Part shown: positions 10,593 through 35,709 of the stretch, one piece after another
How the letters are laid out: each line of letters opens with the position of its first letter
Position numbering within the stretch: the first letter of the stretch is position 1
Assembly: GCA_016778895.1 (NCBI GenBank)
Contig: JADHOR010000012.1
Location: 1 to 52,302 of the forward strand
Length of the DNA: 52,302 nucleotides
Reading direction: 5' to 3'
Origin: Candidatus Puniceispirillum sp.
GTDB lineage: Bacteria > Pseudomonadota > Alphaproteobacteria > Puniceispirillales > Puniceispirillaceae
Notes under the pieces: model-generated
Databases searched by the model: none
Told to the model about the DNA's origin: nothing
What the model saw: the letters and a program-made list of their open reading frames with translations, nothing else
Translations under genes and position numbers: made by a program

Positions 10593-10624
10593 CGACTATT
10601 TAACAACGATATAGGTATTTCATC

Positions 10625-11330: not shown

Positions 11331-11370
11331 GCAGGTTTCCGCACCGCAGGTTTCCGCACCGCAGGTTTTC
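11331..11370. repeat. Short tandem repeat upstream of otnK
   Basis: A 15-base unit, GCAGGTTTCCGCACC, occurs twice in a row (11331-11345, 11346-11360) followed by a partial third copy. A shorter related piece (TCAGCAGGTTTT) precedes it. It lies in the leader between the GST gene and otnK. Confidence 0.8.
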
Positions 11371-11403
11371 TCGGAGTTTGATAATAAAGGATGGATAGGC
11401 ACC

Positions 11404-14683: not shown

Positions 14684-16375
14684 GTGGATACTTTTGACGG
14701 CGATATCGGCATATGGAAATCGGCTCCCGGAAAAGGGCGCAAAACCCCGAAAGGGCGTCAGGTTGATGATGGTGCATTGGGTGAGGTTCGGGCGCTTTTA
14801 GGCGACCGGCCGCGGCGGCGGGACTTGCTCATCGAGCATCTGCATCTTATCCAAGATCGCTATGGCCATCTCAGCGTGGCGCATCTGAATGCGCTGGCTG
14901 ATGAAATGCGTTTGGCGCAAAGCGAAGTCTATGAAGTCGCAACCTTTTACGCGCATTTTGACGTTGTGAAAGACAGCGAAACGCCACCGCCAGCCCTGAC
15001 TATTCGGGTTTGCGACTCGTTGTCATGTGAGTTGGCCGGAGCGCAGGCGCTAAAATCGGCACTTGAGGACGGGCTTGATCCGGCCAAAGTGCGCGTATTG
15101 CGGGCGCCGTGCATGGGGCGCTGTGATACCGCGCCAGTGCTTGAAATTGGGCATAACCACATCGATTTTGCCACACCTGAAAAGGTTGAGGCGGCGATTG
15201 CGGCTGATGATACGCATCCGCACATGACCGATTATCAGGATCTGGCAGCTTACCGCGCGACCGGGGGGTATGAGCAGCTGCTGTCGCTGCGCCAAGATGG
15301 CGATTGGGCGGCAGTTCAGGATCTGGTAAATCAGAGCGGCCTTCGCGGGCTTGGCGGTGCGGGCTTTCCGTCGGGCAAGAAATGGGGCTTTGTACGTGCA
15401 GCCGAAGGGCCGCGCTATCTTGCGGTCAATGGTGACGAGGGTGAGCCGGGTACATTCAAAGACCGGTACTATCTTGAGCGAACCCCGCATTTGTTCCTTG
15501 AGGGAATGCTGATTGCCGCATGGGCAGTCGAGGCTGACACCTGTTTTATCTATATGCGGGATGAATATCCGGTTGTTCTGAAAATTCTGGCCAACGAGAT
15601 TGCGGCGTTAGAAGCTACGGGACTGGTGCCCGAGGGTTATATTGACCTTCGTCGCGGGGCGGGTGCCTATATCTGCGGTGAAGAAAGCGCAATGATCGAA
15701 TCCATCGAGGGTAAGCGCGGTTTGCCGCGGCACCGCCCGCCCTATGTGGCGCAAGTGGGAATTTTTGATCGGCCAACATTGGTTCACAATATCGAAACCT
15801 TGCACTGGATTGCGCGGGTTTGCCGCGAGGGGCCAGAGGTGCTGTCTTCAGTTGAAAAGAATGGCCGTGTTGGATTGCGCAGCTATTCGGTTTCGGGACG
15901 GGTTGCTAATCCGGGCGTGTATCTTTTGCCCGCCGGATCGACCATCACGGACATCATCGAGGCGGCTGGTGGCATGGCCGAAGGCCAGGTCTTTAAGGCC
16001 TATCAACCTGGTGGGCCATCATCGGGTCTTTTGCCGGCCAGTTTAAATGATGTGCCGCTTGATTTTGATACATTGCAGCCGCACGGCACCTTTATCGGAT
16101 CGGCCGCTGTTGTGTTGTTGTCTGATCAGGATCGGGTACGTGATGCGGCGCTGAATATGCTGCGGTTTTTCGAGGATGAAAGCTGCGGTCAATGCACGCC
16201 ATGTCGCACCGGATGTGGCAAGGCCGTGCAGCTCATGCAGGCCGACAAGTGGGATCAGCCGCTGTTGAATGATCTGTGTGATGTGATGCAGGACGCATCT
16301 ATCTGCGGATTGGGACAGGCTGCTCCTAACCCTATTCGTTTGACGATGAAACATTTCTCTGAAGAAGTTAGCTGA
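14684..16375 (+). CDS. fdh1B: NAD-linked formate dehydrogenase beta subunit (NuoE-NuoF fusion, Fdh1B type)
   Basis: This 563-residue subunit passes electrons from the catalytic subunit to NAD. Residues 35-175 are a complete NuoE-like domain with a helical bundle and a [2Fe-2S] site (Cys110, Cys115, Cys143, Cys147). From about 200 it is NuoF-like: FMN/NADH-binding GLGGAGFPSGKKW (222-234), NGDEGEPGTFKDRY, YICGEESA, and a [4Fe-4S] motif SCGQCTPC (Cys501, Cys504, Cys507). The E-F fusion of about 560-570 residues is typical of the tungsten-containing FDH1 of Methylobacterium extorquens, while FdsG and FdsB are separate in other NAD-FDHs. Start is GTG with AGGAGAG upstream. Confidence 0.92.
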   Translation: MDTFDGDIGIWKSAPGKGRKTPKGRQVDDGALGEVRALLGDRPRRRDLLIEHLHLIQDRYGHLSVAHLNALADEMRLAQSEVYEVATFYAHFDVVKDSETPPPALTIRVCDSLSCELAGAQALKSALEDGLDPAKVRVLRAPCMGRCDTAPVLEIGHNHIDFATPEKVEAAIAADDTHPHMTDYQDLAAYRATGGYEQLLSLRQDGDWAAVQDLVNQSGLRGLGGAGFPSGKKWGFVRAAEGPRYLAVNGDEGEPGTFKDRYYLERTPHLFLEGMLIAAWAVEADTCFIYMRDEYPVVLKILANEIAALEATGLVPEGYIDLRRGAGAYICGEESAMIESIEGKRGLPRHRPPYVAQVGIFDRPTLVHNIETLHWIARVCREGPEVLSSVEKNGRVGLRSYSVSGRVANPGVYLLPAGSTITDIIEAAGGMAEGQVFKAYQPGGPSSGLLPASLNDVPLDFDTLQPHGTFIGSAAVVLLSDQDRVRDAALNMLRFFEDESCGQCTPCRTGCGKAVQLMQADKWDQPLLNDLCDVMQDASICGLGQAAPNPIRLTMKHFSEEVS

Positions 16376-19461: not shown

Positions 19462-20523
19462 ATGAAGATTTTGATATTGGGCGCATCATACGGCTCGCTT
19501 CTATCAACGAAATTATTGATGGCAGGTCACGATGTCACTTTGATTTGTCGCAGTAAATCAGCGGATCTGATTAATCGTGAGGGAACCGAAGTGCGGATCA
19601 AGCTCCGCGATGAGGACACCCATCGGGCATTTCGCTCGCATGATTTAGCCGGCACGCTGGATGCGGTGACGCCAGCCGATGCACGGCCTGAAGATTACGA
19701 CATGATCGGGCTTGCGATGCAGGAACCACAATATTCTGAGCCGCAGGTAAAGGGTCTCATGCGCCGTATTGCAGCGAGCCGTCGGCCCTGCCTGTCGATC
19801 ATGAATATGCCGCCATTGCCGTTTTTGCGCCGGATTGAGGCCTTGGCCGGTGCGCCATTGGATATGTGTTACGATGATGTGTCAGTCTGGCAAGATTTTG
19901 AACCGGGCCTGATGTCGCTTTGCAGCCCCGATCCGCAGGCATTCCGGCCTCCGGAGGAAGGCACCAATGTGCTTCATGTTGGCTTGCCAACCAATTTTAA
20001 GGCGGCAGTCTTTGCTGACCCTCAGCATAATGAAATGCTGCGCCAGCTCGAGGCTGATATTTCAGCCGCGATTGTTGATGGCAAGGATGTGCCGGTAAAG
20101 CTGCGCGTTTATGAAAGCCTGTTTGTGCCAATGGCGAAATGGAGCATGCTGCTGACAGGTAATTACCAATGTGTGCAGCGCGACGGGATCCGGCCAATTC
20201 GTGATGCGGTGCATGGTGATATCGACGCCTCGGCCAAAATGTATGCGTGGGTTGATAGGTTGGCACGTGCGCTGGGCGCTGATGCCGTTGATCAGGTGCC
20301 GTTTGAAAAATACGCCAACGCCGCCAGCAGCCTGCTAAAGCCGTCATCAGCCGCACGTGCTATTGATTCGGGGGCCAAAACGATTGAGCGTGTTGACCTG
20401 TTGGTGCAACGAATTGCACTTAGCATTGGTATACAGAATGATCTGCTCGATGAAACTGTTGCGATTGTGAATGAGCGCCTTGATACGAACCGGTTTGAGA
20501 TGCCCGTATACCGTGTCGCGTAA
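19462..20523 (+). CDS. PanE/ApbA-like Rossmann-fold reductase
   Basis: The 353-residue protein opens with a nucleotide-binding strand-loop (MKILILGASYGSLLSTKLL) followed by GHDVTLICRS, as in ketopantoate reductases, and has a helical second half with EKYANAASSLLKPSSAARA that resembles the catalytic Lys-containing C-terminal domain. It is longer than ordinary PanE (about 300) and the usual GAGAIG loop is altered to GASYGS, so another 2-oxo- or 3-oxo-acid may be the substrate. It is a single-gene unit: its own promoter-like element precedes it and a hairpin with T-tract follows. Confidence 0.7.
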   Translation: MKILILGASYGSLLSTKLLMAGHDVTLICRSKSADLINREGTEVRIKLRDEDTHRAFRSHDLAGTLDAVTPADARPEDYDMIGLAMQEPQYSEPQVKGLMRRIAASRRPCLSIMNMPPLPFLRRIEALAGAPLDMCYDDVSVWQDFEPGLMSLCSPDPQAFRPPEEGTNVLHVGLPTNFKAAVFADPQHNEMLRQLEADISAAIVDGKDVPVKLRVYESLFVPMAKWSMLLTGNYQCVQRDGIRPIRDAVHGDIDASAKMYAWVDRLARALGADAVDQVPFEKYANAASSLLKPSSAARAIDSGAKTIERVDLLVQRIALSIGIQNDLLDETVAIVNERLDTNRFEMPVYRVA

Positions 20524-20727: not shown

Positions 20728-21630
20728 TTAGCTTTTTAGGACATCCACCAGGGTGACGCCAAGTTTGGCTGGCGAGGGAGAGACGCGAACGCCGGCGGCC
20801 TCCAGCTCGGCAATCTTCTCATCAGCACCGCCTTTACCGCCAGAAATAACGGCGCCAGCATGGCCCATGGTACGGCCGGGGGGCGAAGTGCGGCCAGCAA
20901 TAAAACCAACCATTGGCTTGGAGCGGCCTTTTTTGGCTTCGTCAATCAGGAATTGTGCTGCATCTTCCTCGGCTGAACCACCAATCTCGCCAATCATGAT
21001 GATTGATTCTGTTTGCGCATCAGCAAGAAACATCTCCAGAACATCGATGAATTCAGTACCCTTCACCGGATCACCGCCAATACCAACAGCAGATGACTGG
21101 CCGAGGCCCGCCATCGAGGTCTGGTAAACTGCCTCATAGGTCAACGTGCCCGAGCGCGATAGCACGCCAACCGAACCTTTGCGGAAAATACTTGGCGGCA
21201 TGATGCCAATCTTGCACTCATCCGGTGTCATCAGGCCAGGACAGTTGGGGCCAATCAAACGTGAGTTTGATTTATCCAGCTTTTCCTTCACCCGCACCAT
21301 GTCCATAACCGGCACACCTTCAGTGATGCAGGTAATCAGCTCAATACCGGCATCAATCGCCTCTTCAATAGCGGCGGCGGCACCGACTGGCGGGACATAG
21401 ATTACCGATGCATTGGCACCTGTGGCGTCTTTCGCTTCGGCAACCGTGGTGTATAACGGCAGATTTTGACCGGCAGCACTCGTCCATTGCTGGCCACCTT
21501 TTTTCGGGTGAGTGCCGGCAACCATCTGGGTCCCATGATAGGCGAGAGCCTGTTCAGTATGAAACGTGCCGGTTTTACCCGTCAGGCCCTGCACGATGAT
21601 TTTAGTGTCTTTATTAATGAGAATCGACAT
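20728..21630 (-). CDS. sucD: Succinyl-CoA synthetase alpha subunit SucD
   Basis: The 300-residue subunit binds CoA and carries the phosphorylated His. It has the CoA-binding Rossmann start ([28 protein letters not shown]), the block [21 protein letters not shown], and the [18 protein letters not shown] segment in which His is the phosphorylated residue. It starts four bases after the sucC stop, so the two form an operon transcribed leftward. The subunits are of ordinary SucCD type, but the related malate-CoA ligase (MtkAB) of serine-cycle organisms cannot be fully excluded by eye. No other TCA-cycle gene is next to it. Confidence 0.9.
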
Positions 21631-21634
21631 GTGC

Positions 21635-22828
21635 TTAGCCTTTCACTGCTTTTACAATTTTCTGCGCGGCGTCATCCAGATCATCTGCGGCAATCACATT
21701 CAGCCCGCTGCTATTGATGATGGCCTTGCCTTCATCCACCTTGGTGCCTTCGAGGCGTACCACTAAAGGCACTTCGAGATTGATGTCTTTTGCCGCCTGG
21801 ACAACACCCTCAGCAATCACGTCACAACGCATGATGCCGCCAAAAATATTCACCAGAATGCCCTTTACGTTTGGATCGGCGGTGATGATCTTAAAAGCAG
21901 CGGTAACGCGTTCGGTTGTTGCGCTGCCGCCAACATCAAGAAAATTTGCTGGCTCGGCGCCGTATAGCTTGATGATGTCCATTGTTGCCATCGCAAGACC
22001 AGCACCGTTCACCATGCAGCCGATTTCGCCATCCAGCGCAATATAGGCAAGGTCATATTTCGATGCTTCAACCTCCTTTTCGTCTTCTTCGGTCTCGTCC
22101 CGCAATTCCATAATATCGGGATGCCGGAATAGCGCGTTATTGTCAAAAGACACTTTCGCATCGAGCACCTGAACATCGTTTGACTTGGTAACAATCAACG
22201 GGTTGATTTCCAGCAAATTCATGTCCTTGCTGCAAAATGCCTCATAGAGGTTCTTAAAAAGTACAATTCCCTGATCACGGGCTGATCCGGTGAGCTTTAG
22301 CGCGTCCGCAAGCTTGGCTGCATCGTTATCAGTGCAACCGGTGCTGGCAGTGATTCCAACTGAATGGATCAGTTCGGGAGTGTCATGCGCGACCATCTCA
22401 ATATCCATGCCGCCTTCGGTCGATGCAACAAAAGACGTTTTACCGGTCTCCCGATCAACAAGGATCGAGAGATATAGTTCGCGATCAATTTCGGCGCCAG
22501 CTTCGACATAAAGCTGATTTACTGCTTTACCACTGGGGCCGGTTTGTTTGGTCACAAGGGTTTTCCCAAACATTTCCTTGACATTAGCCAGTGCATCTTC
22601 CGCTGAGAAAGATACGCGGACGCCGCCTTTCGCGTCAGGGCCAAGCTCTTTGAATTTGCCTTTACCGCGTCCACCGGCGTGGATCTGGCTCTTTACCACC
22701 CAGACTGGGCCGGGAAGGGATGCGATCGCGCCTTCGGCATCGTCAAGATTGGTAATTGCAACACCGGCGGCAATGGGCGCGCCGAATGTCTGTAAAATTT
22801 TCTTGGCCTGATGTTCATGGATGTTCAT
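21635..22828 (-). CDS. sucC: Succinyl-CoA synthetase beta subunit SucC
   Basis: The 397-residue ATP-grasp subunit binds nucleotide and succinate. Motifs in order: [71 protein letters not shown] and [20 protein letters not shown] 22828 is the family's usual start; upstream codons to 22885 do not fit. It pairs with sucD. The promoter must lie in the 357-base region shared with the GntR regulator, which contains a palindromic site at 23027 and a near copy at 23111. This suggests that the CoA ligase is co-regulated with oxalate/formate genes, perhaps to supply succinyl-CoA as CoA donor; that is inference. Confidence 0.92.
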
Positions 22829-23026
22829 GGCTACTGTCTTTCTCCCACTGTGCGACCTCGCTTGCCGAGGCCACGATAATTGCAACGATCCCGTCTTGGG
22901 CGTTCCGCGTTCCGGTGCAAGCCTTATAGCGGACGAAAACCGTTTTTGCCTATATATTGCAAAAGTCGGCGAGGGATAAGTCTATCTGTTGATTCCCCTT
23001 TAATTCACAGATAATTTCCATTTATA

Positions 23027-23185: not shown

Positions 23186-23920
23186 ATGGCAATTGATGTC
23201 AAATTAAAGCCTGTTTCGATCAATTTTACCCTGAAAGACCATATATATGAGGTGCTTCGAGAAAGCATCTTGAAGGTCGATATCTATGATGCTGATGAAG
23301 AGTTGCGATTGGATGAGCGCCGGCTTGCCGAGCAGCTTGGTATTTCACGCACACCGATTCGCGAAGCCTTAGCGCGTTTGGCGCAGGATGGTCTGGTTGA
23401 TATTCTGCCACGCAAGGGGGTGTTTATTCACCGCAAAAGTCTTGACGAGATTCTTGATATGGTTGTGACATGGGCGGCACTGGAAAGCATGGCGGCGCAC
23501 ATTGCGGCGCGTATTGCGTCAGATGCCGAGATCAAGGCACTTCGTGACCTTGCAATGCGGCACAGCACTTCGGTAGCTAAGGCCGAGCTCAGTGAATATT
23601 CCGACGCCAATATCAAATTTCATCAGGCGATTTTAGACATGTCTCGCAGCCCGTTGTTGAAATCAACGACTGACGGGCTTTTTGCCCACATGCTTGCAGT
23701 TCGTCGGCGGGCGATGGGCGAGAATAATCGCGCCACCAATTCGGTTGCCGATCACATGGAAATTATCGAAGCGCTTGAGTCCCGCGACAGTGAATTGGCT
23801 TCGCGGCTGGTGCGCGAGCACACGATGCGCTTGCATGACCATATCCGTGAGAGATGGACGCGACTGGCCAATAAATCAAAGGCACGCGCAAGCCCTGGAA
23901 AGCGTGACACAACAATCTAA
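23186..23920 (+). CDS. GntR-family regulator, FCD/FadR type
   Basis: The 244-residue protein has an N-terminal winged helix-turn-helix (about 15-80) with the GntR signature ELRLDERRLAEQLGISRTPIREALARL and QDGLVDILPRKGVF, and an all-helical FCD ligand domain (about 90-225). The metal-binding residues expected for FCD are visible in SDANIKFHQAIL, VADHMEIIEAL and VREHTMRLHDHI, so the ligand is probably a carboxylic acid held by a metal ion. It lies directly upstream of oxc and frc and divergent from sucCD, with palindromic sites in its upstream region and one in front of fdh1B. I infer it senses oxalate, formate or a related acid. Confidence 0.9.
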   Translation: MAIDVKLKPVSINFTLKDHIYEVLRESILKVDIYDADEELRLDERRLAEQLGISRTPIREALARLAQDGLVDILPRKGVFIHRKSLDEILDMVVTWAALESMAAHIAARIASDAEIKALRDLAMRHSTSVAKAELSEYSDANIKFHQAILDMSRSPLLKSTTDGLFAHMLAVRRRAMGENNRATNSVADHMEIIEALESRDSELASRLVREHTMRLHDHIRERWTRLANKSKARASPGKRDTTI

Positions 23921-24027
23921 CACCTAAATACGGGCGCGCCGCAAAGAACAGAAAAGCAGCCGCTAAAATTAAACGCTAACCAAATATATCAATTCGAAAA
24001 TTGCGAAGGTTCTTACAGGAGACAAAA

Positions 24028-25740
24028 ATGACTTCATCCGAGACACAGGCGCTAACTGACGGTTTTCACCTCGTTATCGACGCGCTCAAGCTCAATGATA
24101 TCAACACTATTTACGGCGTTCCGGGTATTCCGATCACCGATCTTGGACGGATTGCGCAGGCCGAAGGTATGCGCGTTATTTCATTCCGCCATGAACAGCA
24201 TGCGGGTAACGCTGCATCAATTGCCGGTTATCTGACAAAAAAGCCGGGTATTTGTCTGACCGTTTCGGCACCGGGCTTCTTGAACGGTCTGACCGCATTG
24301 GCAAATGCAACGACAAACTGTTTCCCGATGATCCTAATCAGTGGCTCGTCCGAGCGTGAAATTGTTGATCTGCAGCAGGGTGATTATGAAGAAATGGATC
24401 AGTTGGCGATTGCCAAGCCGCTTTGCAAGGCAGCGTTCCGGGTCCTGCACGCCGAAGATATTGGCATTGCTGTTGCGCGCGCCATTCGTGCTGCCGTTTC
24501 TGGTCGTCCGGGCGGCGTTTACCTTGATCTCCCGGCAAAATTATTTTCTCAGGTTATGGACGCTTCAGAAGGCCAAAAGTCTCTTGTCAAGGTTGTCGAT
24601 CCGGCGCCACGGCAATTGCCTGCCCCTGATTCGGTTGCGCGGGCGCTTGATGTCCTGAAAAGCGCAAAGCGTCCACTGATTATTCTGGGTAAGGGCGCTG
24701 CCTATGCGCAGGAAGATGAGATCGTGCGTAGCTTTGTCGAGAAAAGCGGCGTGCCTTATCTGCCAATGAGCATGGCAAAGGGCCTGTTGCCGGATGATCA
24801 CCCGCAGTCTGCCGGTGCGGCGCGTTCACTGGTGCTAAAAGAAGCGGATGTGGTGGTTATGGTTGGTGCGCGTCTGAACTGGCTGTTGTCACATGGCAAG
24901 GGCAAGAGCTGGGGCGAGCCGGGTTCAAAGCGCTTTGTCCAAGTTGATATCGAGCCACGTGAAATGGACAGCAATGTCGAGATTGCGGCGCCTGTTGTTG
25001 GTGACATTGGATCATGCTTGAGTGCAATGACCCAAGGCATGGGAGATAATTGGCCAGCCGTGCCGGCCGATTGGACAGCCACAATCCAGCAGCGCAAAGA
25101 CATTAACCTTGAAAAAATGGGCGCCAAGTTGAAAAGTAACGCCGTGCCAATGGATTTCCACAGCGCGCTCGGTGCTCTTCGTACGATCGTCAAGGAACGT
25201 CCAGATGCGATTTTGGTGAATGAGGGGGCTAACACGCTCGATTTCGCCCGCAGCATCATCGATATTTATAAGCCGCGCAAGCGTCTTGACGTAGGAACAT
25301 GGGGCATTATGGGCATCGGTATGGGCGCTGCTGTTGCGGCGGCGGTTGAAACCGGTCAGCGTGTCTTGGCTGTTGAGGGTGATAGCGCCTTTGGTTTCTC
25401 CGGAATGGAAATCGAGACGATCTGCCGCTACAACCTGCCGGTTTGTGTGGTCGTCTTCAACAATAACGGTATTTACCGAGGCACTGACACGAACCCGACT
25501 GGCGGTGCAGATGTGGCGCCGACGGTATTTGTTAAGGATGCCCGTTATGACCAGATGATGGCAGCGTTTGGCGGGGTTGGCGTTTACGCCACAACGCCGG
25601 ATGAGCTTACCCGCGCGGTAAATGAGGCAATGGACAGTGGCAAGCCTACCTTGGTCAACGCTGTCATTGATGAAAATTCCGGCACTGAGAGTGGCCGTAT
25701 TGGTAATCTCAACCCACAAAGTGTGGTGTCTAAGAAGTAG
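24028..25740 (+). CDS. oxc: Oxalyl-CoA decarboxylase
   Basis: Oxc is a thiamine-diphosphate enzyme that converts oxalyl-CoA to formyl-CoA and CO2. The 570-residue protein has the family layout: PYR domain with [12 protein letters not shown] and the catalytic Glu region [59 protein letters not shown], the central domain, and the ThDP/Mg motif [23 protein letters not shown] with [18 protein letters not shown] and [10 protein letters not shown] are close to well-studied oxalyl-CoA decarboxylases, which separates it from acetolactate synthases. ATG 24028 has AGGAG upstream. It precedes frc by 39 bases. Confidence 0.94.
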
Positions 25741-25782
25741 CGCAACTGTCCAGTCAATAAGGTTTAGAAATAGGATAAGATG

Positions 25783-27042
25783 ATGAAAGCTCTTGAAGGT
25801 GTTAAAGTTCTGGATTTCACCCATGTCCAATCAGGCCCGACCTGTACGCAGCTTCTGGCGTGGTTCGGCGCCGATGTGATCAAGGTCGAGCGTCCGGGGG
25901 TTGGGGATGCAACCCGACAGCAATTGGTCGATGTTGAAGGGGCCGATAGCCTTTATTTCACCATGCTGAACCACAATAAACGGTCAATTGAGCTGAATTC
26001 AAAAAATGAAACCGGCAAGCGGATTTTGGCGCGTCTTATCGAAACCTGTGATGTGCTGGTTGAAAATTTTGCGCCAGGCGCGCTGGACCGTATGGGATTT
26101 ACGTGGGAGCGGATTCAGGAAATCAATCCGCGCCTTATTATGGCCTCGATCAAGGGGTTTGGCCCGGGCAAATATCAGGATTGCAAAGTCTATGAGAATG
26201 TCGCGCAATGTGCTGGTGGCTCTGCGTCAACGACTGGTTTTCGCGATGGCCCGCCATTGGTGACTGGTGCACAAATCGGTGATTCCGGAACCGGCCTGCA
26301 TCTTTGCCTTGGTATTGTCACTGCCCTATTTCATCGGGAAAAATCTGGTCGCGGCCAGAAGGTGACTGCAGCAATGCAAGACTCGGTGCTGAACCTTGCG
26401 CGGGTAAAGCTTCGCGACCAGCAGCGTCTTGCCGCTGGCCCGTTGAAAGAATATTCGCAATTTGGTGAGGGTATTCCGTTTGGTGATGCGACACCGCGTG
26501 CTGGGAATGATTCGGGCGGCGGCCAGCCGGGCCGTATCCTGCGTTGCAAGGGCTGGGAACAGGACCCGAACGCATACACCTATTTTATCATTCAGGCAGC
26601 GGTTTGGGAAAAGGTTTGCGATATCATTGGCGAGCCTGAGTGGAAAACCAAAGAAGGTTATGCCAAGCCACCACAGCGCCTTGATAAATTAAATGAAATC
26701 TTCGAGCGTATTGAACAATGGACAATGACCAAAACGAAATTTGAGGTCATGGATGCCTGTAACCCGCTGGATATTCCGGTGGGCCCGATCCTGTCGATGA
26801 AAGAAATTGCCGAAGATGATGGTCTCTATGCAACTGGCACTTTGGTCAAGGTCGATCATCCAGAACGAGGCGAATATATTTCGGTCGGGTGTCCGATTAA
26901 ATTGTCTGATAGCCCAGCTGAGGTGAAACGCTCACCACTGCTTGGTGAACATACAACTGAGATTTTGACGGATGTTCTTGGATATTCAGCAGATGAACTT
27001 GCCCAGATTATTGAATCGGGCGCAGTCGGTAATGTTAAGTAA
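25783..27042 (+). CDS. frc: Formyl-CoA:oxalate CoA-transferase
   Basis: Frc moves CoA from formyl-CoA to oxalate, giving oxalyl-CoA and formate. The 419-residue protein is a class III CoA-transferase with [20 protein letters not shown] at the N-terminus, [43 protein letters not shown], and the active-site segment [17 protein letters not shown] holding the catalytic Asp. The [19 protein letters not shown] region is typical of Frc rather than carnitine transferases. Two ATGs are adjacent (25780, 25783); the second gives the usual N-terminus. Its pairing with oxc makes the assignment firm. The earlier CaiB-like gene at 6079 is more distant. Confidence 0.94.
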
Positions 27043-27117: not shown

Positions 27118-28029
27118 ATGAGAATTGTACTACATGGGCAGCAGGCATTTGGGCAAGCTGTATTGGAACGACTTTTGGAGCGCGGCGAAAACGTGGTTGC
27201 CGTATGTTGCGCACCGACAAAAGAGGGCAAGCCTGAAGACCCGCTAGTTGAACTGGCGCGGGAAAAAGGACTGCCGGTTCATCAGCCAGCATCGTGGAAG
27301 ACTCCCGAGGCGCTCGAATTGATGAAATCATTTAATGCCGACGTCTGCATGATGGCCTATGTGTTGTTATTTGTGCCGCAGGAAGTGCGTGATGCACCAA
27401 AATACGGCACGTTCCAGTATCATCCGTCACTATGCCCGGAACATCGCGGCCCGTCATCGATTAACTGGCCAATCGCAATGGGTAAAACTCGCACTGGCCT
27501 GTCAATTTTCTGGCCGGATGATGGCTTGGATGAAGGCCCCATGATGCTGCAAAAAACCTGCGAGATCGGCCCTGATGAGACGCTTGGAGATGTTTATTTC
27601 AAAAAGCTGTTCCCGATGGGCGTCGATGCGATGATCGAGGGGCTTGAGCTGGTAAAGGCCGGCGTTATTATCAAGCATGATCAGCGCCTTGAAGACGGTT
27701 CTTATGAAAGCTGGTTTGGCAAGGCGGCGGCCGAGATCGATTGGTCAAAGCCGGTTGCGGATGTGTATAATATTATCCGTGCTGCCAACCCTGCACCGGG
27801 GGCTTGGACAACCGTAAATGGCAGTGAGGTAAAAATTTATGATAGTGCGCGCGTTGAGGGCATCGGTACCGCTGGCGAAGTGGTTTCGGTCGACGAAAAC
27901 GGCGTTACGGTTCAAGGCAATGGCGGGCGTATCCTGATTAAAAGAGTTCGGCCTGCTGATGGTGGAAAAATGGCGGCAAGTGAATGGGCTTTGGCTGCTG
28001 GAATTAACTCCGGAACAAAGTTAGGATAA
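27118..28029 (+). CDS. Formyltransferase like the hydrolase part of 10-formyl-THF dehydrogenase
   Basis: The 303-residue protein resembles the N-terminal folate domain of ALDH1L1-type 10-formyl-THF dehydrogenase and, more distantly, methionyl-tRNA formyltransferase. Visible are [19 protein letters not shown], the catalytic-site block [17 protein letters not shown] with the conserved His, and [16 protein letters not shown] with the conserved Asp; the third site residue, Asn in Fmt, is Gln here (FQYHPS). A second, Fmt-C-like domain follows from about residue 205. It lies between frc and fhs, five bases before fhs. That context suggests transfer of formyl between CoA and tetrahydrofolate, or hydrolysis of formyl-THF. 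Neither is shown. Confidence 0.75.
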
Positions 28030-28034: not shown

Positions 28035-29711
28035 GTGAGCTTCAAAACAGACATCGAAATTGCACGCGAAGCTAAAAAAATCGCTATTCAAGATGTGGGG
28101 GCAAAGCTGGGTATTCCCAGTGCTGATCTCCTGCCATTTGGACATGACAAGGCAAAAGTTTCTGAGAGATTTATTAAGGGTCTTGCCAACAATAAAGATG
28201 GTCGCTTGATCTTGGTGACCGCGATCAACCCAACACCGGCCGGTGAGGGTAAAACGACAACAACTGTCGGCCTTGGCGACGGGTTGAACAAAATTGGCAA
28301 AAAAGCCGCTGTGTGTATCCGCGAGGCCTCGCTTGGCCCGTGTTTCGGAATGAAGGGTGGTGCCGCTGGTGGTGGTTATGCTCAAGTGGTGCCGATGGAA
28401 GATATGAACCTGCATTTTACCGGTGACTTCCACGCCATTACCTCGGCACATAACCTTCTTGCTGCCATGCTTGATAACCATATCTATTGGGGCAACGAGC
28501 TGGATATTGATATTCGCCGTGTTGCGTTCCGCCGCGTATTAGATATGAATGATCGGGCACTTCGTGAAATCGTCTGTAACCTTGGAGGCGTCGCCAACGG
28601 CTTTCCGCGAGAAGCAGGTTTTGACATCACTGTTGCATCTGAGGTGATGGCTATCTTGTGTTTGGCAACTGACCTTGCCGATCTAGAGCGCCGTCTTGGC
28701 GACATCATTGTTGCCTACCGGCGCGATCGCTCACCGGTATTCTGCCGTGATATCAAGGCTGATGGCGCAATGACAGTATTGTTGCAGCAGGCAATGCAGC
28801 CAAATCTGGTGCAAACATTGGAGAACAACCCGGCTTTTGTGCATGGTGGTCCATTTGCCAATATTGCGCATGGCTGTAATTCGGTTGTCGCAACAACAAC
28901 AGCGCTAAAGCTGGCTGATTATGTGGTAACCGAAGCCGGGTTTGGCGCCGATCTTGGTGCGGAGAAATTTTTGAACATCAAATGCCGCAAGGCCGGACTT
29001 CGTCCTGACGCGGTTGTCATTGTTGCCACGGTTCGTGCGATGAAGATGAATGGTGGTGTTGCCAAAGCCGATCTTGGCCAGGAGAATGTCGACGCAGTGA
29101 AAAAAGGATGTCCGAATCTGGGACGCCACATTGAGAATATCAAACAATTTGGTGTTCCGGCGATCGTTGCGATCAACCATTTTGTCACTGACACTGATGC
29201 CGAGGTTCAGGCTCTAAAAGATTTCGTTTCAGCACAGGGCAGCCAGGCTGTTCTGGCAACACATTGGGCAAACGGTAGTGAAGGCACTGTTGATCTGGCA
29301 CAGAAAGTTGTCGCTCTGATTGACGGAAACCCATCACAATATTCACCGCTATACCCGGCTGAAATGCCGTTGTTTGAAAAGATCGAGACGATTGCCAAGA
29401 AAATCTACCGGGCCGATGAGGTGCTGGCCGATTCGAAGATTCGTGACCAGCTGAAACAGTGGGAAGCACAGGGCTATGGTGACCTGCCTGTTTGTATGGC
29501 CAAGACCCAGTACAGTTTTACCACCGATCCTAATCGTCGGGGCGCACCAACCGGTCACAGCTTGCCAATTCGTGAGGTTCGACTGTCGGCTGGAGCCGGG
29601 TTTGTCGTGGTGATTTGTGGTGATGTTATGACCATGCCGGGCCTGCCACGCGTGCCTTCAGCAGAGACAATTCGGATTAATAAAAATGGGTTGATTGATG
29701 GCCTCTTTTAG
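28035..29711 (+). CDS. fhs: Formate-tetrahydrofolate ligase
   Basis: Fhs makes 10-formyl-THF from formate, THF and ATP. The 558-residue protein is of normal length and contains the P-loop [14 protein letters not shown], the block [55 protein letters not shown], and [15 protein letters not shown]. Start is GTG with only five bases after the formyltransferase gene. Here it would draw formate released by oxalate decarboxylation into the folate C1 pool, or recover ATP from formyl-THF in reverse. A hairpin with weak U-tract follows. Confidence 0.95.
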
Positions 29712-29780: not shown

Positions 29781-30638
29781 ATGATTCGTATGATTCTTGT
29801 GCCAGTTCGAGGCGATGGTAAGGGCGATAATGTCCTTGCTCACGCGGTTGCGTTGGCACGAGGGTTTAACGCACATATTAAAATCACCCATTGCCGCGCC
29901 AAGCCGGAAAATCTGTTGCCTTTCGGGGTGCCGATTCCGGCTGCGCTTCGCACTCAGCTTGCCGAGAGTACCAGTCAGGTATTTGACATTGAGGAAGCCG
30001 GACTTCGTGATGAAGTCCTCGCGCTGAGTAAAACCCTGAACATTCGATTGTCAGACACACCAGACGGGAAATCTGTAACGGCAAATTTTGTCGAAGAAGC
30101 CGGCCGTCAAATTGACGTGATCGGGCATCACGGCCGGCTTGCTGATCTTATTGCTGTGGCGCAGCCTGATATTGATCGCAACCTTGGTGCTAATACGCTA
30201 AAGGCCGCGCTGTTTAATACCGGGCGGCCGGTGTTAATGTGTCCTGAGGCAACCAAGCCCATTCCGGAAATCCTCGGCAGAAATGTAACGATCGCCTGGG
30301 ATGGGTCGCGTGAGGTATCGCGAGCAGTAACAACCTGTCTGCCGTTACTTGTTGCGGCGAAATCAGTGACCGTTATGACTGTTAAGTCAAAACCGGTCAC
30401 GGTAAAGCCCGATGAATTGCAGGATTATCTTGCGGCGCATGGCGTTACAGCTGACGTTGTTGAGATTGAAACCAAGTTACAGACGGCACAGGCACTTTTG
30501 GATAAGTCAGCGGCACTTGGCGCCGATCTTATGGTGCTTGGCGCTTACAGTAAACATCATGATTTAGAGAGGTTTTGGGGTGGCACCACCCAATATATCG
30601 TGGATCACGCAACGATCCCGGTGATTATGACGAATTAG
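29781..30638 (+). CDS. Universal stress protein (tandem Usp domains)
   Basis: The 285-residue protein is built of two UspA-like domains, about 1-145 and 160-285. The first opens with MIRMILVPVRGDGKGDNVLAHAV, and the second ends with the nucleotide-type loop MVLGAYSKHHDLERFWGG followed by TTQYIVDHATIPVIM. Such proteins bind nucleotides and act in stress or in regulating associated metabolism; no specific role is shown. It sits between fhs and the tctCBA transporter, 70 bases from the former, and TTT transporter loci often carry such a gene. It lacks signal and membrane segments. Confidence 0.85.
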   Translation: MIRMILVPVRGDGKGDNVLAHAVALARGFNAHIKITHCRAKPENLLPFGVPIPAALRTQLAESTSQVFDIEEAGLRDEVLALSKTLNIRLSDTPDGKSVTANFVEEAGRQIDVIGHHGRLADLIAVAQPDIDRNLGANTLKAALFNTGRPVLMCPEATKPIPEILGRNVTIAWDGSREVSRAVTTCLPLLVAAKSVTVMTVKSKPVTVKPDELQDYLAAHGVTADVVEIETKLQTAQALLDKSAALGADLMVLGAYSKHHDLERFWGGTTQYIVDHATIPVIMTN

Positions 30639-30747
30639 GTGTCGGCTCAGCAAATGTTGGGTAAAAATCATTAAAAGCCATCGGGTTAGAAGAATGGCGC
30701 GGGGTATGGAGAGGTTCTCCATACAAAGGAAACCAAAGGAGGAGACT

Positions 30748-31749
30748 ATGAAGTCTATCAAAAAACTTTTTATTGGAACAGTTGGAATGGTCTTGGCGGC
30801 AACGTCAATTTCAGGTGCAGCTGTTGCCGGTGGCCATGGCTGGGAGCCAAGCAAACCAGTTGATTTTATCATTATGGCTGGCAAGGGCGGTGGTGCCGAT
30901 AAGATGGCGCGCTTGATGCAGGCGATTGTTGAAAAGGAAAACTTGGCAAACCGTCCACTTGTTCCAACCAACAAGTCTGGTGGTTCGGGTGCAGAGGCGC
31001 TTATTGCCGCCTCAAAAGCCAGCGATCCAGACCATACGATTATGGTTACCTTGAACTCTTTCTACACAACACCATTGCGTCAGCCTGGCCTAAAGATTGA
31101 CAGCATGAGCTTTGCTCCTGTTGCGCGTATGGCTGAAGACACATTTTTGTTGTGGGTTCACAAAGACAGTGGCCTCAAAACATTCCAGGAGTTCCTGACA
31201 AAGGCAAAGGCTGATGGGAACAAATGGGTTATGGGCGGAACTGGTAAAAACTCTGAAGACAACATCATCACTGACTTCTTGAATGACACTTACGGTCTTT
31301 CAATGAAGTATATCCCATATAAGGGCGGTGGAGCTGTTGCCAAGCAGGTTGCTGGTAAGCAGCTGAATTCATCAGTAAACAATCCATCAGAGGCGCTCGG
31401 CTTCTACGAGTCAGGCGATATGGTACCACTGGTTGCTTTTACAAATAGCCGTCTTCCGATGTTCCCTAATGTTCCAACCTTGGGTGAAGTGTTTGCTGGT
31501 GGTAAGCAGGCTAAATGGTCTTATTTCATGCAGCGTTCTGTTGTCGGTGCGCCTGGCATGTCTGAGAAGGCACAGGCTTATTATACTGATTTGTTTACAA
31601 AGGTTTACAACTCAGCTGATTGGCAGAAGTACAAAAAAGATAAGTCTTTGATGGGCGATTTTATGGCAGGTGATGAGCTTAAAGCCTATTGGAAAGGGCA
31701 AATTGCTAACCACGAAAAAATCCTGAAAGCGTCAGGTGCGATTAAATAA
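30748..31749 (+). CDS. tctC: TctC-like substrate-binding protein of a tripartite tricarboxylate transporter
   Basis: The 333-residue periplasmic protein (BugT family) captures a carboxylate for the TctA/TctB membrane part. It has a signal peptide (about 1-27, ending GAAVAGG), the strand PVDFIIMAGKGGGADKMARL, the carboxylate-pinning MVTLNSFYTTPL region, and the interdomain IPYKGGGAVAKQVAGKQ. ATG 30748 is set by AAAGGAGGAG just upstream; the longer frame would disrupt the signal peptide. Placement next to oxc, frc and fhs suggests oxalate, formate or a related small acid as the substrate; this is inference, since the binding pocket cannot be read by eye. First gene of tctCBA. Confidence 0.9.
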   Translation: MKSIKKLFIGTVGMVLAATSISGAAVAGGHGWEPSKPVDFIIMAGKGGGADKMARLMQAIVEKENLANRPLVPTNKSGGSGAEALIAASKASDPDHTIMVTLNSFYTTPLRQPGLKIDSMSFAPVARMAEDTFLLWVHKDSGLKTFQEFLTKAKADGNKWVMGGTGKNSEDNIITDFLNDTYGLSMKYIPYKGGGAVAKQVAGKQLNSSVNNPSEALGFYESGDMVPLVAFTNSRLPMFPNVPTLGEVFAGGKQAKWSYFMQRSVVGAPGMSEKAQAYYTDLFTKVYNSADWQKYKKDKSLMGDFMAGDELKAYWKGQIANHEKILKASGAIK

Positions 31750-31789: not shown

Positions 31790-32320
31790 ATGCGTAAAGC
31801 GGAAACAATAACAGCGTTTATCTTGGGAGTCCTCTCAATATATTTCATGTGGAAGTCGGGGGAAGCACCTGAGTGGAACCCTGACATAGCCAGGTTCGAT
31901 AATATTTGGATGATCGAAGGCGAAGGGCCTGGGAGTGGGTTTTGGCCTTTCTGGTTATCAGCGATAATGCTGATATGTTGTATCTGGATTGGCATCAACT
32001 GGTACCGTAGGACATCGCCTCCATCACAGTCCGAGGAAGAATTTCTGGATGGATACGGCCGGCGCATGCTTTTTGTCGTCGGGGGAGGTTTGCTTGGCTT
32101 TCTGATCATGATTGAGATCGCAGGCTTTTACGGTGCAATTCTATTGTTCATGATTTATTACGTTCGGTTTTTGGGACGTCATTCATGGACGGCGACACTC
32201 TCGATAGCTGTCGGGTTGGTTGTGTCCAGCTTTTTCTTTTTCGATATCGCAATGCGCATCGTTCTTCCAAAAGGGTTTTTGGAGCCGCTGTTCATTCCTT
32301 TATATGATATTTTTCTATAG
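31790..32320 (+). CDS. tctB: TctB-like small membrane subunit
   Basis: The 176-residue protein has four hydrophobic segments: about 5-20 (ETITAFILGVLSIYFMW), about 47-66, a long one near 85-120 and a final one near 125-150. This matches TctB, the small subunit of the transporter. It is the middle gene, 40 bases after tctC and 30 bases before tctA. The loop after the first segment contains FWPFWLSAIMLICC, in line with other TctB proteins. Confidence 0.82.
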   Translation: MRKAETITAFILGVLSIYFMWKSGEAPEWNPDIARFDNIWMIEGEGPGSGFWPFWLSAIMLICCIWIGINWYRRTSPPSQSEEEFLDGYGRRMLFVVGGGLLGFLIMIEIAGFYGAILLFMIYYVRFLGRHSWTATLSIAVGLVVSSFFFFDIAMRIVLPKGFLEPLFIPLYDIFL

Positions 32321-32350: not shown

Positions 32351-33871
32351 ATGGATATTATAGCATCGCTAATGCAGGGTATTTTGATTGCACTTGAGCC
32401 AATCAATCTTGGTCTTGCAATCACTGGTGTAATCATTGGGTTGTTTGTTGGAGCAATGCCGGGTTTGGGTTCGGTGAATGGCGTCGCGATTTTACTGCCA
32501 TTTACCTTTGTTATTCAGGGGTTCACTGGTGGTGCAACGTCGCCAATGATTTTTCTTGCGTCGATTTACTATGGCGCAATGTATGGCGGTGCGATCTCGT
32601 CGATTACGTTGGGCATCCCCGGGGCGTCGACCGCGGTTGCTACAACCTTTGATGGGCGTCCACTTGCTCTGGCAGGCAAAGCGCATGTCGCGCTAGTTGC
32701 GGCTGCTCTCGCTTCATTTGCGGGCGGCACGGTTTCTAATGTCTTATTTACTGCCTTCGCACCATTGTTGGCAACTGTGGCGCTATCATTTGGTGATCCG
32801 GAAGTTTTTGCGCTCATGCTCCTTGCCTTTGCGACCTTTGTTGGTCTCGGAGGTGATGATATTCCAAAGACTATTTTTTCAATCTGCATAGGCTTGGTAT
32901 TGGCGACAGTCGGGTTTGATGTAGTCTCAGGAGAACCGCGATTAGTATTCTTTGATATCACCGGCTTCTCGCATGGCATCCGCTTTCTGGTGCTGGCGAT
33001 TGGCGTTTACGGTATTGGGGAAATGCTGTGGACCATCAATACGTCGCGCTATGGTTCTTCGATGTCTAAAGTTGATGTTACGGCGCGGGCGATTATTGAT
33101 GCGATCAAGGAGTTTCGGCACGCTTGGCGTGGGACGGTTATAGGATCGTTGCTTGGCTTTTTCGTCGGTATTTTGCCGGCGGCAGGTGCTACTCCTGGAT
33201 CATTAATGGCCTACGGTGTGGCGAAGCTTACATCAAGTAATCCTAGAGCGTATGGCAAGGGAGCGGTCGATGGTGTGGCAGCGCCTGAGGCGGCGAACAA
33301 CTCAGCTTCCACTGGGGCAATGCTGCCAATGATGACACTTGGTATTCCAGGGTCACCAACGACGGCGGTATTGCTTGCTGGTATGGTTATCTGGGGTCTC
33401 CAGCCTGGGCCGCTGTTGTTTACAAATCAGCCTGATTTTGTATGGCCGCTTATTGGTTCTTTTTACATCTCAAACGTTATTGCGGTTTTGATCAATCTGG
33501 CTTTTATTCCTGTTTTCCTATGGATGTTGCGCATGCCATTTACCATTCTGGCACCGCTGATCTTTGTGCTGTCACTTGTCGGAACATATGCTGCCTATCA
33601 GGATATGTTTGACGTATGGCTGATGGTATTTGTTGGGGTTGGTGCGTTCTTCTTGCGCCTCCTTGATTATCCAGTTGCACCCGCAGTACTGGCGATCGTG
33701 CTTGGGCCGATTGCTGAGCCTAAATTGCGACAGTCGCTGTTGTTCTCTGATGGTGATTTCATGATCTTCTTCAACCGGCCAATCGCTGGGCCGATCACGG
33801 TAATTGCCATCGTGCTAATTCTCCTGCCGCTGTTTAAACTGATCCGTGACAAGATAAAGCAAACAGCATAA
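32351..33871 (+). CDS. tctA: TctA-like large permease subunit
   Basis: The 506-residue protein is the 11-12-helix permease of the tripartite tricarboxylate transporter. The two family repeats are visible: GLFVGAMPGLGSVNGVAILLPFTF at the N-terminus with SPMIFLASIYYGAMYGGAISSITLGIPGAST, and the second repeat in the middle with FFVGILPAAGATPGSLMAYGV and EAANNSASTGAMLPMMTLGIPGSPTTAVLL. These glycine/proline-rich loops line the substrate path. It is the last gene of the transporter unit and ends just before a strong terminator. Confidence 0.93.
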   Translation: MDIIASLMQGILIALEPINLGLAITGVIIGLFVGAMPGLGSVNGVAILLPFTFVIQGFTGGATSPMIFLASIYYGAMYGGAISSITLGIPGASTAVATTFDGRPLALAGKAHVALVAAALASFAGGTVSNVLFTAFAPLLATVALSFGDPEVFALMLLAFATFVGLGGDDIPKTIFSICIGLVLATVGFDVVSGEPRLVFFDITGFSHGIRFLVLAIGVYGIGEMLWTINTSRYGSSMSKVDVTARAIIDAIKEFRHAWRGTVIGSLLGFFVGILPAAGATPGSLMAYGVAKLTSSNPRAYGKGAVDGVAAPEAANNSASTGAMLPMMTLGIPGSPTTAVLLAGMVIWGLQPGPLLFTNQPDFVWPLIGSFYISNVIAVLINLAFIPVFLWMLRMPFTILAPLIFVLSLVGTYAAYQDMFDVWLMVFVGVGAFFLRLLDYPVAPAVLAIVLGPIAEPKLRQSLLFSDGDFMIFFNRPIAGPITVIAIVLILLPLFKLIRDKIKQTA

Positions 33872-33880: not shown

Positions 33881-33904
33881 GGGGCACCTCGGTGCCCCTT
33901 TGCT
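33881..33904 (+). terminator. Terminator after tctCBA
   Basis: A perfect 8-base stem, GGGGCACC (33881-33888) and GGTGCCCC (33891-33898), with a two-base gap, is followed by TTTGCTT. It ends the oxalate/transport unit. Confidence 0.85.
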
Positions 33905-33930
33905 TGTGGGCGTTGATTGGGCTTCTCAGG

Positions 33931-35709
33931 ATGGAACAAAAACCAGAATTTAGTGATGAACAGCATAACGCATGGAACCCTGGCCTTAGTTCTACTATGC
34001 CGACACGTCTTTTGCCGCTGATTACCCTGTTTCGGCCAGAAAATAGTGACGTCGGTTATCAGCAGGCAAAGGAGGCGGCAGATTTCTGCGGCCTTGCGGT
34101 TGAACAATTATGTGCCCTAAAGGTCGAACGCCTTGTTGTGCATGAGGTTTTAATACGGGTAACTGCTGATCTGTCGGTGCCGGACGGGCCGAGTTATGAA
34201 TATCTTGGTATTCAGCTGCGCGGTATGGTTGATCGCATATATCGTCAATATATAGTTCCGGAGCTGGATCGCGTCAAAGCGGATTTTGCTATTGTGAGGC
34301 AAAGCGCCGAAGATAGGATTTCCCAGCTCGTTGATGAAATTTATGCTTTTGAAATGATGCAGCCGCCGCCAAAGCAGGGTTTTTTAAACTTTTGGAAAAA
34401 AGCTCCAAAACCCTCGGCGTCAACCACGACACCGCCTGAGCTTCAGGCACTTGATAACTTGCGCCGACAAGTAATTCACGCCGATGATTTTACTGCCGCC
34501 TGCATGGCTGCCCTCATCAGTGTTGTAAGTGGCATTTTGGGAAAACAGGGGCGGATTGTCACTGACCGGTCGTTGATTGTCGGGCTTGCACTACGGGTGT
34601 TTTGCAATGATCAAGGCAGTGCCGAAGTTGGCCGGTTGATTGCGCCGCTGTTTGCGCAGGCAGCAAAGGCCGAAGGCTATCGCTTTTTGCCCGCACAAAG
34701 CGAGCCGATTGTGATGAATACCAAAGGTGCCTCTGCAGCTGGCAAAAGTACGATCCGGCCACAGCAACGCTTGCTGGCTGAGCGGATGGGGGTGCCATGG
34801 GAGGATTTTGCCCTTATCAGCCCTGATTATTGGCGGAAATATCTGCTAGATTATGACAGTCTGGGTGCAGATTACAAATATGCGGCCATGCTTACCGGGC
34901 GTGAGCTGGAATTTGTCGATAAAAAGCTAGATCGCTACATGGCGCAAAAGGCGATAGCTAAATCGGTTCCACATTTACTGATTGACCGGTTTCGGTTTGA
35001 CAGTTTCAAAATTGACAGCGAAGGCGATTATAAAAGCACGTTGTTGAGCCGGTTTGGGTCAACCGTCTTTTTGTTTTTTGCTATCACACCGCCGCCCGCA
35101 ACGGTTGAACGTGCATGGCAGAGGGGATTAACGACAGCGCGCTATAAAGCTGTTGATGATTTGCTGTATCATAATATTGAGGCTTTTACCGGTATTCCCG
35201 AACTGTTTTTCTCATGGATGTCGATTACCGACAAAAACATCTATTTTGAATTTTTGGATAATGACGTGCCTCTGGGTGATTTGCCAAAAACAATTGCCTT
35301 TGGGCGTAACGGATTGATGACGGTACTTGATCCAGTTGCCTTGTCTAATATCGACCGGTTTAAAGAGGTCAATGTTGCGGCAACGCGCCCAGAGGATGTG
35401 CTAAACCCTGAATGGACGCCAAGTTTCCAATTTTTGCGGCAATGTATTGCGGCTTTGCCAAAGCTGGAATTTGCCGATCAAACCAGCGCCGCCATATATG
35501 GGCGCATTGAAAAGACAGAGTGGATTTACAAAAACGCTGCTACCAAGCCGCAAAATCAGGTCGTTGATCAGGGGCTGGATGCGATTGGATGGAACGCCAA
35601 ACCATCACCCAAACCGGCGCCGGTTGAGCGGCTTGATATCGACGCCGAAAAGCGGGTGACGCTTGGGGCGTGGGGCGGTGTATCAGCCAATTCCGGTGGT
35701 GCCGATTAA
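33931..35709 (+). CDS. P-loop protein with zeta-toxin-like kinase core, unknown function
   Basis: The 592-residue protein has an N-terminal helical region (about 1-250) of unknown type and a P-loop core from about 258, with Walker A GASAAGKST (266-274), then LISPDYWRKYLLDYDSLGADYKYAAML, and LLIDRFRFDSF as a Walker B-like strand. The spacing of P-loop, DYW and the tyrosine-rich helix resembles zeta-toxin/PezT-type kinases that phosphorylate UDP-sugars, but the extra domains and length are not typical. The last 100 residues are Pro-rich and low in structure. No antitoxin gene is adjacent. ATG 33931 is chosen because the frame's earlier starts lie in the terminator hairpin. Function unknown. Confidence 0.65.
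   Translation: MEQKPEFSDEQHNAWNPGLSSTMPTRLLPLITLFRPENSDVGYQQAKEAADFCGLAVEQLCALKVERLVVHEVLIRVTADLSVPDGPSYEYLGIQLRGMVDRIYRQYIVPELDRVKADFAIVRQSAEDRISQLVDEIYAFEMMQPPPKQGFLNFWKKAPKPSASTTTPPELQALDNLRRQVIHADDFTAACMAALISVVSGILGKQGRIVTDRSLIVGLALRVFCNDQGSAEVGRLIAPLFAQAAKAEGYRFLPAQSEPIVMNTKGASAAGKSTIRPQQRLLAERMGVPWEDFALISPDYWRKYLLDYDSLGADYKYAAMLTGRELEFVDKKLDRYMAQKAIAKSVPHLLIDRFRFDSFKIDSEGDYKSTLLSRFGSTVFLFFAITPPPATVERAWQRGLTTARYKAVDDLLYHNIEAFTGIPELFFSWMSITDKNIYFEFLDNDVPLGDLPKTIAFGRNGLMTVLDPVALSNIDRFKEVNVAATRPEDVLNPEWTPSFQFLRQCIAALPKLEFADQTSAAIYGRIEKTEWIYKNAATKPQNQVVDQGLDAIGWNAKPSPKPAPVERLDIDAEKRVTLGAWGGVSANSGGAD

Follow-up and report, generated by a model that had tools for sequence, protein, structure and literature searches.

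The gene ft, which lies between frc and fhs in the oxalate operon of a SAR116-type bacterium, encodes a protein (Ft) for which a soluble formyl-CoA:tetrahydrofolate (THF) formyltransferase is the best-supported candidate function, and we consider this assignment probable. It is proposed as a candidate new function inside a known superfamily. The proposal draws on the gene itself, its fold family, its conserved active site, its genomic linkage, a switch of the TPP enzyme encoded beside it, and a genus that carries ft but no fhs. On a broader reading, to which we would give about even chances, members of the family exchange formyl groups between CoA and folate as a shared outlet of oxalyl-CoA decarboxylase (Oxc) and 2-hydroxyacyl-CoA lyase (HACL), providing direct C1 entry for carbon from oxalate or glyoxylate where formate--THF ligase (Fhs) is missing and a thioester-to-ATP relay where it is present.

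A preliminary description of this DNA had suggested that ft links formyl-CoA from oxalate to 10-formyl-THF, and that no enzyme with such activity had been described in oxalate operons. The link itself is supported by co-occurrence, by the exchange of Oxc for a HACL-like enzyme, by the Fhs-free genus and by the chemistry of related proteins, but its restriction to oxalate and the accompanying ATP argument have to be given up in their original form. As to novelty, no description of a formyl-CoA:THF formyltransferase was found in the consulted portions of the open-licence literature, subscription papers lying mostly outside this scope, although HypX has been proposed to perform the reverse half reaction, making formyl-CoA from N10-formyl-THF and CoA (PMC6802093). 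The excerpts used of the YfdE paper name Fhs and PurT as aerobic fates of formate, and no formyl-CoA:THF formyltransferase (PMC3720670).

If the assignment is correct, Ft would join the catabolism of oxalate, glyoxylate and 2-hydroxy acids to C1 assimilation without free formate, account for C1 units from oxalate in oxalate users that have no Fhs, supply engineers with a missing part, and assign a function to a family left nameless by the NCBIfam models tested. According to the excerpt consulted, formyl-CoA had as of 2019 been reported only as a substrate of formyl-CoA:oxalate CoA-transferase (Frc) (PMC6802093); synthetic C1 pathways now use it as an intermediate (PMC8411744, PMC11961710).

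The oxalate operon and its surroundings

The window, that is the whole stretch of DNA analysed (52,302 nucleotides), belongs to assembly G000, which comprises 2.17 Mb in 61 contigs. The ft open reading frame starts with ATG, preceded by a purine-rich, ribosome-binding-like stretch (GGGGAG), and encodes 303 amino acids with no internal stops. It follows frc after a gap of 75 bp, and its stop codon is separated by 5 bp from the GTG start of fhs at 28035, so the coordinates bear out the placement of ft between frc and fhs, as first described, with all three genes on the plus strand. The order on the plus strand is a GntR/FCD regulator gene, oxc, frc, ft, fhs, a universal stress protein gene and tctCBA; upstream of the oxalate cluster lie an ApbA/PanE-like gene, sucCD on the minus strand, and formate dehydrogenase genes. 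The closest named relatives of Ft are from Candidatus Puniceispirillum genomes, with 93-96% protein identity. The features of this region are as follows.

14684-16375, plus strand: NuoEF-like protein, likely to be the formate dehydrogenase diaphorase subunit (matches to TIGR01959 and TIGR01958, both below cut-off)
16383-19166, plus strand: formate dehydrogenase alpha subunit (TIGR01591, above cut-off)
19462-20523, plus strand: ApbA/PanE-like reductase, a possible oxalyl-CoA reductase / CoA-acylating glyoxylate dehydrogenase, taken as a lead (PF02558, 22.8 bits vs cut-off 22.2)
20728-21630, minus strand: sucD, succinate-CoA ligase alpha subunit (NF004230, above cut-off)
21635-22885, minus strand: sucC, succinate-CoA ligase beta subunit (NF001913, above cut-off)
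23186-23920, plus strand: GntR/FCD regulator upstream of oxc (PF00392 and PF07729)
24001-25740, plus strand: oxc, oxalyl-CoA decarboxylase (TIGR03254 equivalog, 1003 bits vs cut-off 739)
25780-27042, plus strand: frc, formyl-CoA:oxalate CoA-transferase (TIGR03253 equivalog, 697 bits vs cut-off 504)
27118-28029, plus strand: ft, stand-alone formyltransferase resembling the FDH hydrolase domain, proposed as a formyl-CoA:THF formyltransferase (Gln100, His102, Ser104, Asp138, Tyr196)
28035-29711, plus strand: fhs, formate--THF ligase, GTG start (PF01268; NF010030, 930 bits vs cut-off 652)
29781-30638, plus strand: universal stress protein family (PF00582)
30694-31749, plus strand: TctC-type binding protein of a tripartite carboxylate transporter (PF03401)
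31790-32320, plus strand: probable small membrane subunit TctB (assigned solely by its place between tctC and tctA)
32351-33871, plus strand: TctA membrane subunit (PF01970)

The listed start of oxc is a TTG codon, and an in-frame ATG is present at 24028. A gntR homologue is found upstream of oxc or of the HACL gene in many relatives too. Behind tctA, positions 33892-35709 encode a 605-amino-acid protein containing a P-loop-like stretch (GASAAGKST), with no match in Pfam and none in NCBIfam at E 1e-20; it occupies the same place behind tctA in many relatives (47-81% identity), and near the oxc/frc cluster of locus L104 there is a relative with 44% identity. What looks like an operon for the breakdown of four-carbon sugar acids occupies 7634-13298, with genes for a HAD hydrolase, an isocitrate/isopropylmalate-type dehydrogenase, Ldh_2, GST, an SBD_N/NBD_C protein and a 3-oxo-tetronate 4-phosphate decarboxylase.

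Protein family, fold and active site

Ft contains the Pfam domains PF00551 (89.9 bits, E 2e-25) and PF02911 (73.9 bits, E 1e-20), both above the gathering score. Its best solved relative is the hydrolase (folate) domain of 10-formyl-THF dehydrogenase (FDH, ALDH1L1) with 199 bits, compared with at most 136 bits for methionyl-tRNA formyltransferase (Fmt; 4iqf, with 131 bits for E. coli Fmt 1fmt), 86 for ArnA and 43 for HypX, which confirms the resemblance to the FDH folate domain pointed out earlier; structural alignments give 35-36% identity with this domain. An AlphaFold2 model of Ft (mean pLDDT 91.6) shows the Fmt/FDH fold. Comparison of this model with known folds leaves FDH and Fmt tied (Z 32.7 vs 33.1), and Foldseek places FDH first by E-value (3e-34 vs 3e-30), while by TM-score some Fmt structures are higher (0.91 vs 0.88). 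Since the fold searches are tied, it is sequence alone that separates the two, and judged in this way Ft is closest to the FDH folate domain.

None of the NCBIfam equivalogs tested accepts Ft. Its scores relative to the cut-offs are 134.9/201.5 bits for Fmt (TIGR00460), 129/316 for PRK06988, 96/777 for ArnA and 34/150 for PurN; the PurU model TIGR00655 is absent among the four families matching Ft at E 0.001, and two distant members of the ft family reach 20-22 bits with it, against a cut-off of 286. Three distant members also remain below the NCBIfam cut-offs. The second homologue in the genome, encoded elsewhere, is a proper Fmt with 241 bits. Ft shares the two-domain fold and the folate site with Fmt, but differs from it in scoring below the curated cut-off, in having Gln for Asn, and in coexisting with a separate Fmt.

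Five residues, His102, Ser104, Asp138, Tyr196 and Arg110, are invariant in all 96 ft family proteins (counting the window's own copy and excluding the Fmt of its genome), and correspond in the sequence alignment to His106, Ser108, Asp142, Tyr200 and Arg114 of FDH. Position 100, which aligns with the Asn of amine-formylating members and with Ile104 of FDH, is occupied by Gln in 93 of these proteins and by Cys in the other 3; we know of no characterised precedent for Gln in place of Ile or Asn here. Phe85 (Phe89 of FDH) is invariant in alignment A1, which consists of 34 hand-chosen proteins and omits L032, with a stop codon within range, and many near-copies. These invariant residues indicate that the folate site has been kept, with a family-specific residue at position 100, and the early remark that the conserved His and Asp are retained and the Asn of Fmt replaced by Gln is borne out. 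In FDH, replacement of Ile104 by Asn leaves less than 10% of the hydrolase activity (PMC4388273).

In FDH the formyl group travels between folate and the thiol of a phosphopantetheine: the folate domain hands the group to the 4'-phosphopantetheine arm of the carrier domain, and free hydrolase activity requires high, non-physiological thiol concentrations (PMC8748788). Ft keeps the catalytic residues at about 35% identity, but consists of the folate domain only, with no carrier or aldehyde dehydrogenase domain found by Pfam, and has Gln100 instead of Ile104. Its proposed partner would be free CoA and its direction the opposite one, in a setting of oxalate/formyl-CoA operons; by analogy with FDH, CoA may well be the thiol partner of such a stand-alone domain encoded in a formyl-CoA operon. 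HypX, known from NiFe-hydrogenase maturation and CO synthesis, has a homologous N-terminal domain (about 20% identity; sequence match at E 2e-10, restricted to HypX residues 60-269), for which formyl exchange between N10-formyl-THF and CoA was proposed from structure, not assay. It differs from Ft, in which Pfam found no enoyl-CoA hydratase-like second domain, and its proposed direction, from THF to CoA, is opposite to that suggested for Ft.

Co-occurrence with frc and the source of formyl-CoA

Searches of 231 evenly drawn alphaproteobacterial genomes (the class sample; ft at E <= 1e-60, frc at E <= 1e-100) revealed ft in 16, frc in 20, fhs in 108 and purU in 62 (60 of them above the curated cut-off). 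All 16 ft genomes, which span 12 families, contain frc (Fisher p 3e-21) and also fhs (p 3e-6, vs 108 of 231 overall), although these p values are indicative only, because the genomes are related and not independent. A phylum sample of 259 genomes (ft at E <= 1e-50) yielded 8 ft genomes, all with frc, and 23 frc genomes. With two genomes common to both samples, there are 22 distinct ft genomes and 41 frc genomes; frc is present in every ft genome (22/22), and ft in 22 of the 41 frc genomes, the other 19 being without it. Co-occurrence with oxc and frc in other genomes, proposed in advance as a check, was therefore found, with frc in 22 and Oxc in 13 of the 22. FolD is encoded in 20 ft genomes, G104 and G312 being the two without it.

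In 16 of the 22 genomes ft stands directly behind frc. In the other six (G088, G091, G102, G104, G156 and G178) frc sits elsewhere with oxc or a lyase gene and, fhs in G091 apart, none of the profiled genes around ft belongs to the pathway; the contig of G156 ends 283 bases before ft. The G091 locus (L089:2270-4942) has fhs and ft adjacent without frc, beside isochorismatase and glutamine amidotransferase-like genes. At L087 and L096 ft lies apart from frc near a gene for a BD-FAE-type esterase, followed in L087 by a 2OG-Fe(II) oxygenase gene. Among 101 loci, 80 of which were fetched as close relatives (80 of 96 kept) and from which the window's own copy (L081) and its Fmt (L082) were left out, frc lies within 600 bp upstream of ft in 93, and fhs is found no more than 1.5 kb from ft in 65, some loci being cut short. 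The family occurs in marine SAR116 bacteria, Hyphomicrobiaceae, relatives of Rhodobacter and some small-genome proteobacteria. One contig titled Rubripirellula (Planctomycetota; L033) bears an alphaproteobacterial-type frc-ft pair with 76% identity and is probably misbinned.

A formyl-CoA-making enzyme was found in 21 of the 22 ft genomes, namely Oxc in 13 and a HACL-like enzyme in 8; G156 also has an Oxc-like protein (41% identical), which was left out of the Oxc count. The 93 loci with an frc-ft pair include 67 with oxc, 22 with another TPP enzyme, three on contigs that are short upstream, and locus L100. Fifteen of the 22 other TPP enzymes were compared with Oxc and are 22-26% identical to it. 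For three that were profiled, the best curated matches, to an acetolactate synthase model and then to 2-hydroxyacyl-CoA lyase, are below cut-off. One such protein compared with PDB entries matched best the 2-hydroxyacyl-CoA lyase 7pt3, presumably the actinobacterial 2-hydroxyisobutyryl-CoA lyase. Enzymes of the 2-hydroxyisobutyryl-CoA lyase type yield acetone and formyl-CoA (PMC7176365, PMC8760513). The lyase-like TPP enzyme is named HACL-like on account of this best match and of the formyl-CoA product of that type, and its similarity to such lyases makes it a likely formyl-CoA source in place of Oxc. It replaces Oxc at L035, L040, L062, L064, L066, L079 and others, at about 4.6-6.7 kb in the locus, and the frc product encoded beside it has about 78-87% identity to Frc of the window.

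On the ft tree, a quick IQ-TREE reconstruction in which support is poor for 37 of about 100 inner branches, the context changes between oxc and HACL at least 9 times (10 per group), and well-supported branches force 6-7 of these changes. A tree with outgroups gives 11-12 changes, 6-8 of them on well-supported branches, and a single HACL-linked clade is rejected on the ft tree (AU p 3e-67; quick search). The L051 translation read on too far and was trimmed to 330 residues for these trees, and no root is claimed for the ft family, since very long branches lead to FDH and Fmt. The repeated swap between Oxc and the HACL-like enzyme beside frc-ft means that ft follows the product formyl-CoA and not oxalate; formyl-CoA is the common denominator of ft loci. 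A strict dependence on oxalate is contradicted by the HACL-type loci, and the oxalate-operon setting first described for ft is matched by Oxc in 13 of the 22 genomes, whereas in 8 the HACL-like enzyme is the likely formyl-CoA source.

For genome G466, Oxc was not found in the 17-kb locus and HACL was not found genome-wide. Its ft gene stands among genes for PEP carboxylase, a CitE/HpcH-type lyase, a succinate-CoA-ligase pair and formate dehydrogenase, with fhs about 11 kb away. At locus L100 (3078-16909) frc-ft stands amid PEP carboxylase, CitE-like lyase, succinate-CoA ligase and formate dehydrogenase genes. This gene set looks like one for serine-cycle C1 assimilation.

Direction of the reaction, rival functions and ATP cost

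In the proposed reaction THF would bind the N-terminal Rossmann domain of Ft, as in FDH, and its N10 would take the formyl group from the formyl-CoA thioester at His102/Ser104/Asp138, giving 10-formyl-THF and free CoA. Formyl-CoA would be supplied by Oxc from oxalyl-CoA or, in other genomes, by the HACL-like enzyme. The product would feed purines and, in genomes that have FolD, also methylene-THF and serine; in those that have Fhs, it could be exchanged for formate and ATP. We infer the use of formyl-CoA, the direction and these downstream fates from the data above and below. The Oxc/Frc cycle, in which formyl-CoA is an intermediate, is the host pathway of ft; in its textbook form formyl-CoA ends as formate via Frc, and transfer to folate is not described in the source excerpts consulted. 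Fhs also makes 10-formyl-THF for the C1 pool and its gene adjoins ft here, but it is an unrelated protein that uses formate and ATP, and it was not found in three frc-ft genomes.

These three genomes (G356, G387 and G447; 1.7-2.1 Mb, two of them single-contig) belong to one genus (g286) and have the arrangement oxc-frc-frc-ft. PF01268, the fhs domain, was not found in them (3 of the 22 ft genomes), and they possess purU and FolD; in the class sample, no ft genome without fhs was found (0 of 16). Being from a single genus, they represent one evolutionary case. Without fhs, Ft cannot be acting there on Fhs-made 10-formyl-THF, and with purU present another folate hydrolase would be superfluous. 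In this genus Ft most simply serves to charge folate from formyl-CoA, and these genomes favour the reaction formyl-CoA + THF -> 10-formyl-THF + CoA. A formyl thioester should be more activated (higher in energy) than 10-formyl-THF, so the equilibrium should favour 10-formyl-THF. A strict dependence of Ft on Fhs is contradicted by this one genus.

The proposed direction runs counter to that described for FDH and suggested for HypX, and the strict association of ft with fhs in the class sample also weighs against it, as though the two enzymes worked jointly; this association fits equally well with energy conservation by Fhs running in reverse and with priming. Further points against the assignment are the six genomes with ft away from frc, the 19 frc genomes without ft, the unprecedented Gln at position 100 and the tie between FDH and Fmt in the fold comparison; the formyl-CoA-making activity of the HACL-like enzyme is likewise only presumed. 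In the case of priming, which we hold to be unlikely though worth weighing, Fhs would make 10-formyl-THF from formate and ATP and Ft would pass the formyl group to CoA. The pair would amount to a formyl-CoA synthetase driven by ATP, which starts the CoA-transfer cycle of Frc or tops it up, a cycle that is leaky as formyl-CoA is unstable (half-life 1.9 h in quenched mixtures; PMC3720670, Fig. S2 legend). Such a direction is that described for FDH and proposed for HypX, and it would suit the closeness of fhs to ft in 65 of 101 loci and its presence in 16 of 16 ft genomes of the class sample. The genus with oxc-frc-frc-ft and no fhs speaks against it, even if the second Frc there could prime instead, and so does, on general grounds, the expected equilibrium in favour of 10-formyl-THF.

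It is less probable still that Ft is a PurU-like 10-formyl-THF hydrolase, which would free THF and formate from Fhs-made 10-formyl-THF and counter the trapping of THF at high formate. The FDH domain does hydrolyse 10-formyl-THF in vitro at high thiol (PMC8748788, PMC4388273), and purU is missing from 19 of the 22 ft genomes. However, avoidance between fhs and purU is general in the class sample, with purU in 15 of 108 fhs genomes vs 47 of 123 without fhs (p 3e-5), and within fhs genomes the relation of ft to purU has p = 0.12; as this avoidance explains the missing purU, the reading of Ft as a PurU substitute is weakened. In all three ft genomes without Fhs, purU is present, and a hydrolase would leave unexplained both the linkage to frc (22/22) and its survival when Oxc is exchanged for a lyase.

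There is little likelihood that Ft formylates another small molecule or a protein, for example an amine, with 10-formyl-THF or formyl-CoA as donor. N-formyltransferases such as ArnA and the sugar N-formyltransferases do fall within the same superfamily, but amino-sugar or amine genes are absent among the profiled neighbours, the Asn of amine-formylating members is Gln in Ft, and Ft scores below the ArnA, PRK06988 and PurN cut-offs. A spare Fmt without a pathway-specific role, as the Fmt fold match (Z 33) might suggest, is rejected as highly improbable in view of the TIGR00460 score below cut-off, the genome's separate Fmt at 241 bits, and the frc linkage in 22 of 22 genomes.

For the preferred formyl-CoA:THF formyltransferase, the claimed entry of oxalate carbon into the C1 pool without expense of ATP stands where formyl-CoA arises net, but not within the Oxc/Frc cycle: there formyl-CoA activates the next oxalate, so that diverting it to THF costs one CoA activation. 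ATP is saved only with net formyl-CoA, made from a hydroxyacyl-CoA by the lyase or by a glyoxylate route. Glyoxylate can enter via the CoA-acylating glyoxylate dehydrogenase PanE2/ApbA2 (PMC7486775, PMC8411744), and the ApbA/PanE-like gene near the cluster is a candidate for this oxalyl-CoA reductase, to be taken as a lead. Besides that of the window, 16 loci have an ApbA/PanE-like gene near the cluster; no such match (E 1e-4) was found in the frc regions L116-L119 of three large genomes with frc and without ft (G416, twice, G370 and G357). At L107 the ApbA/PanE-like gene lies directly behind frc (L107:6955-7971). Another CoA donor cited for oxalate is succinyl-CoA (PMC12188714), and sucCD adjoins the oxalate cluster of the window.
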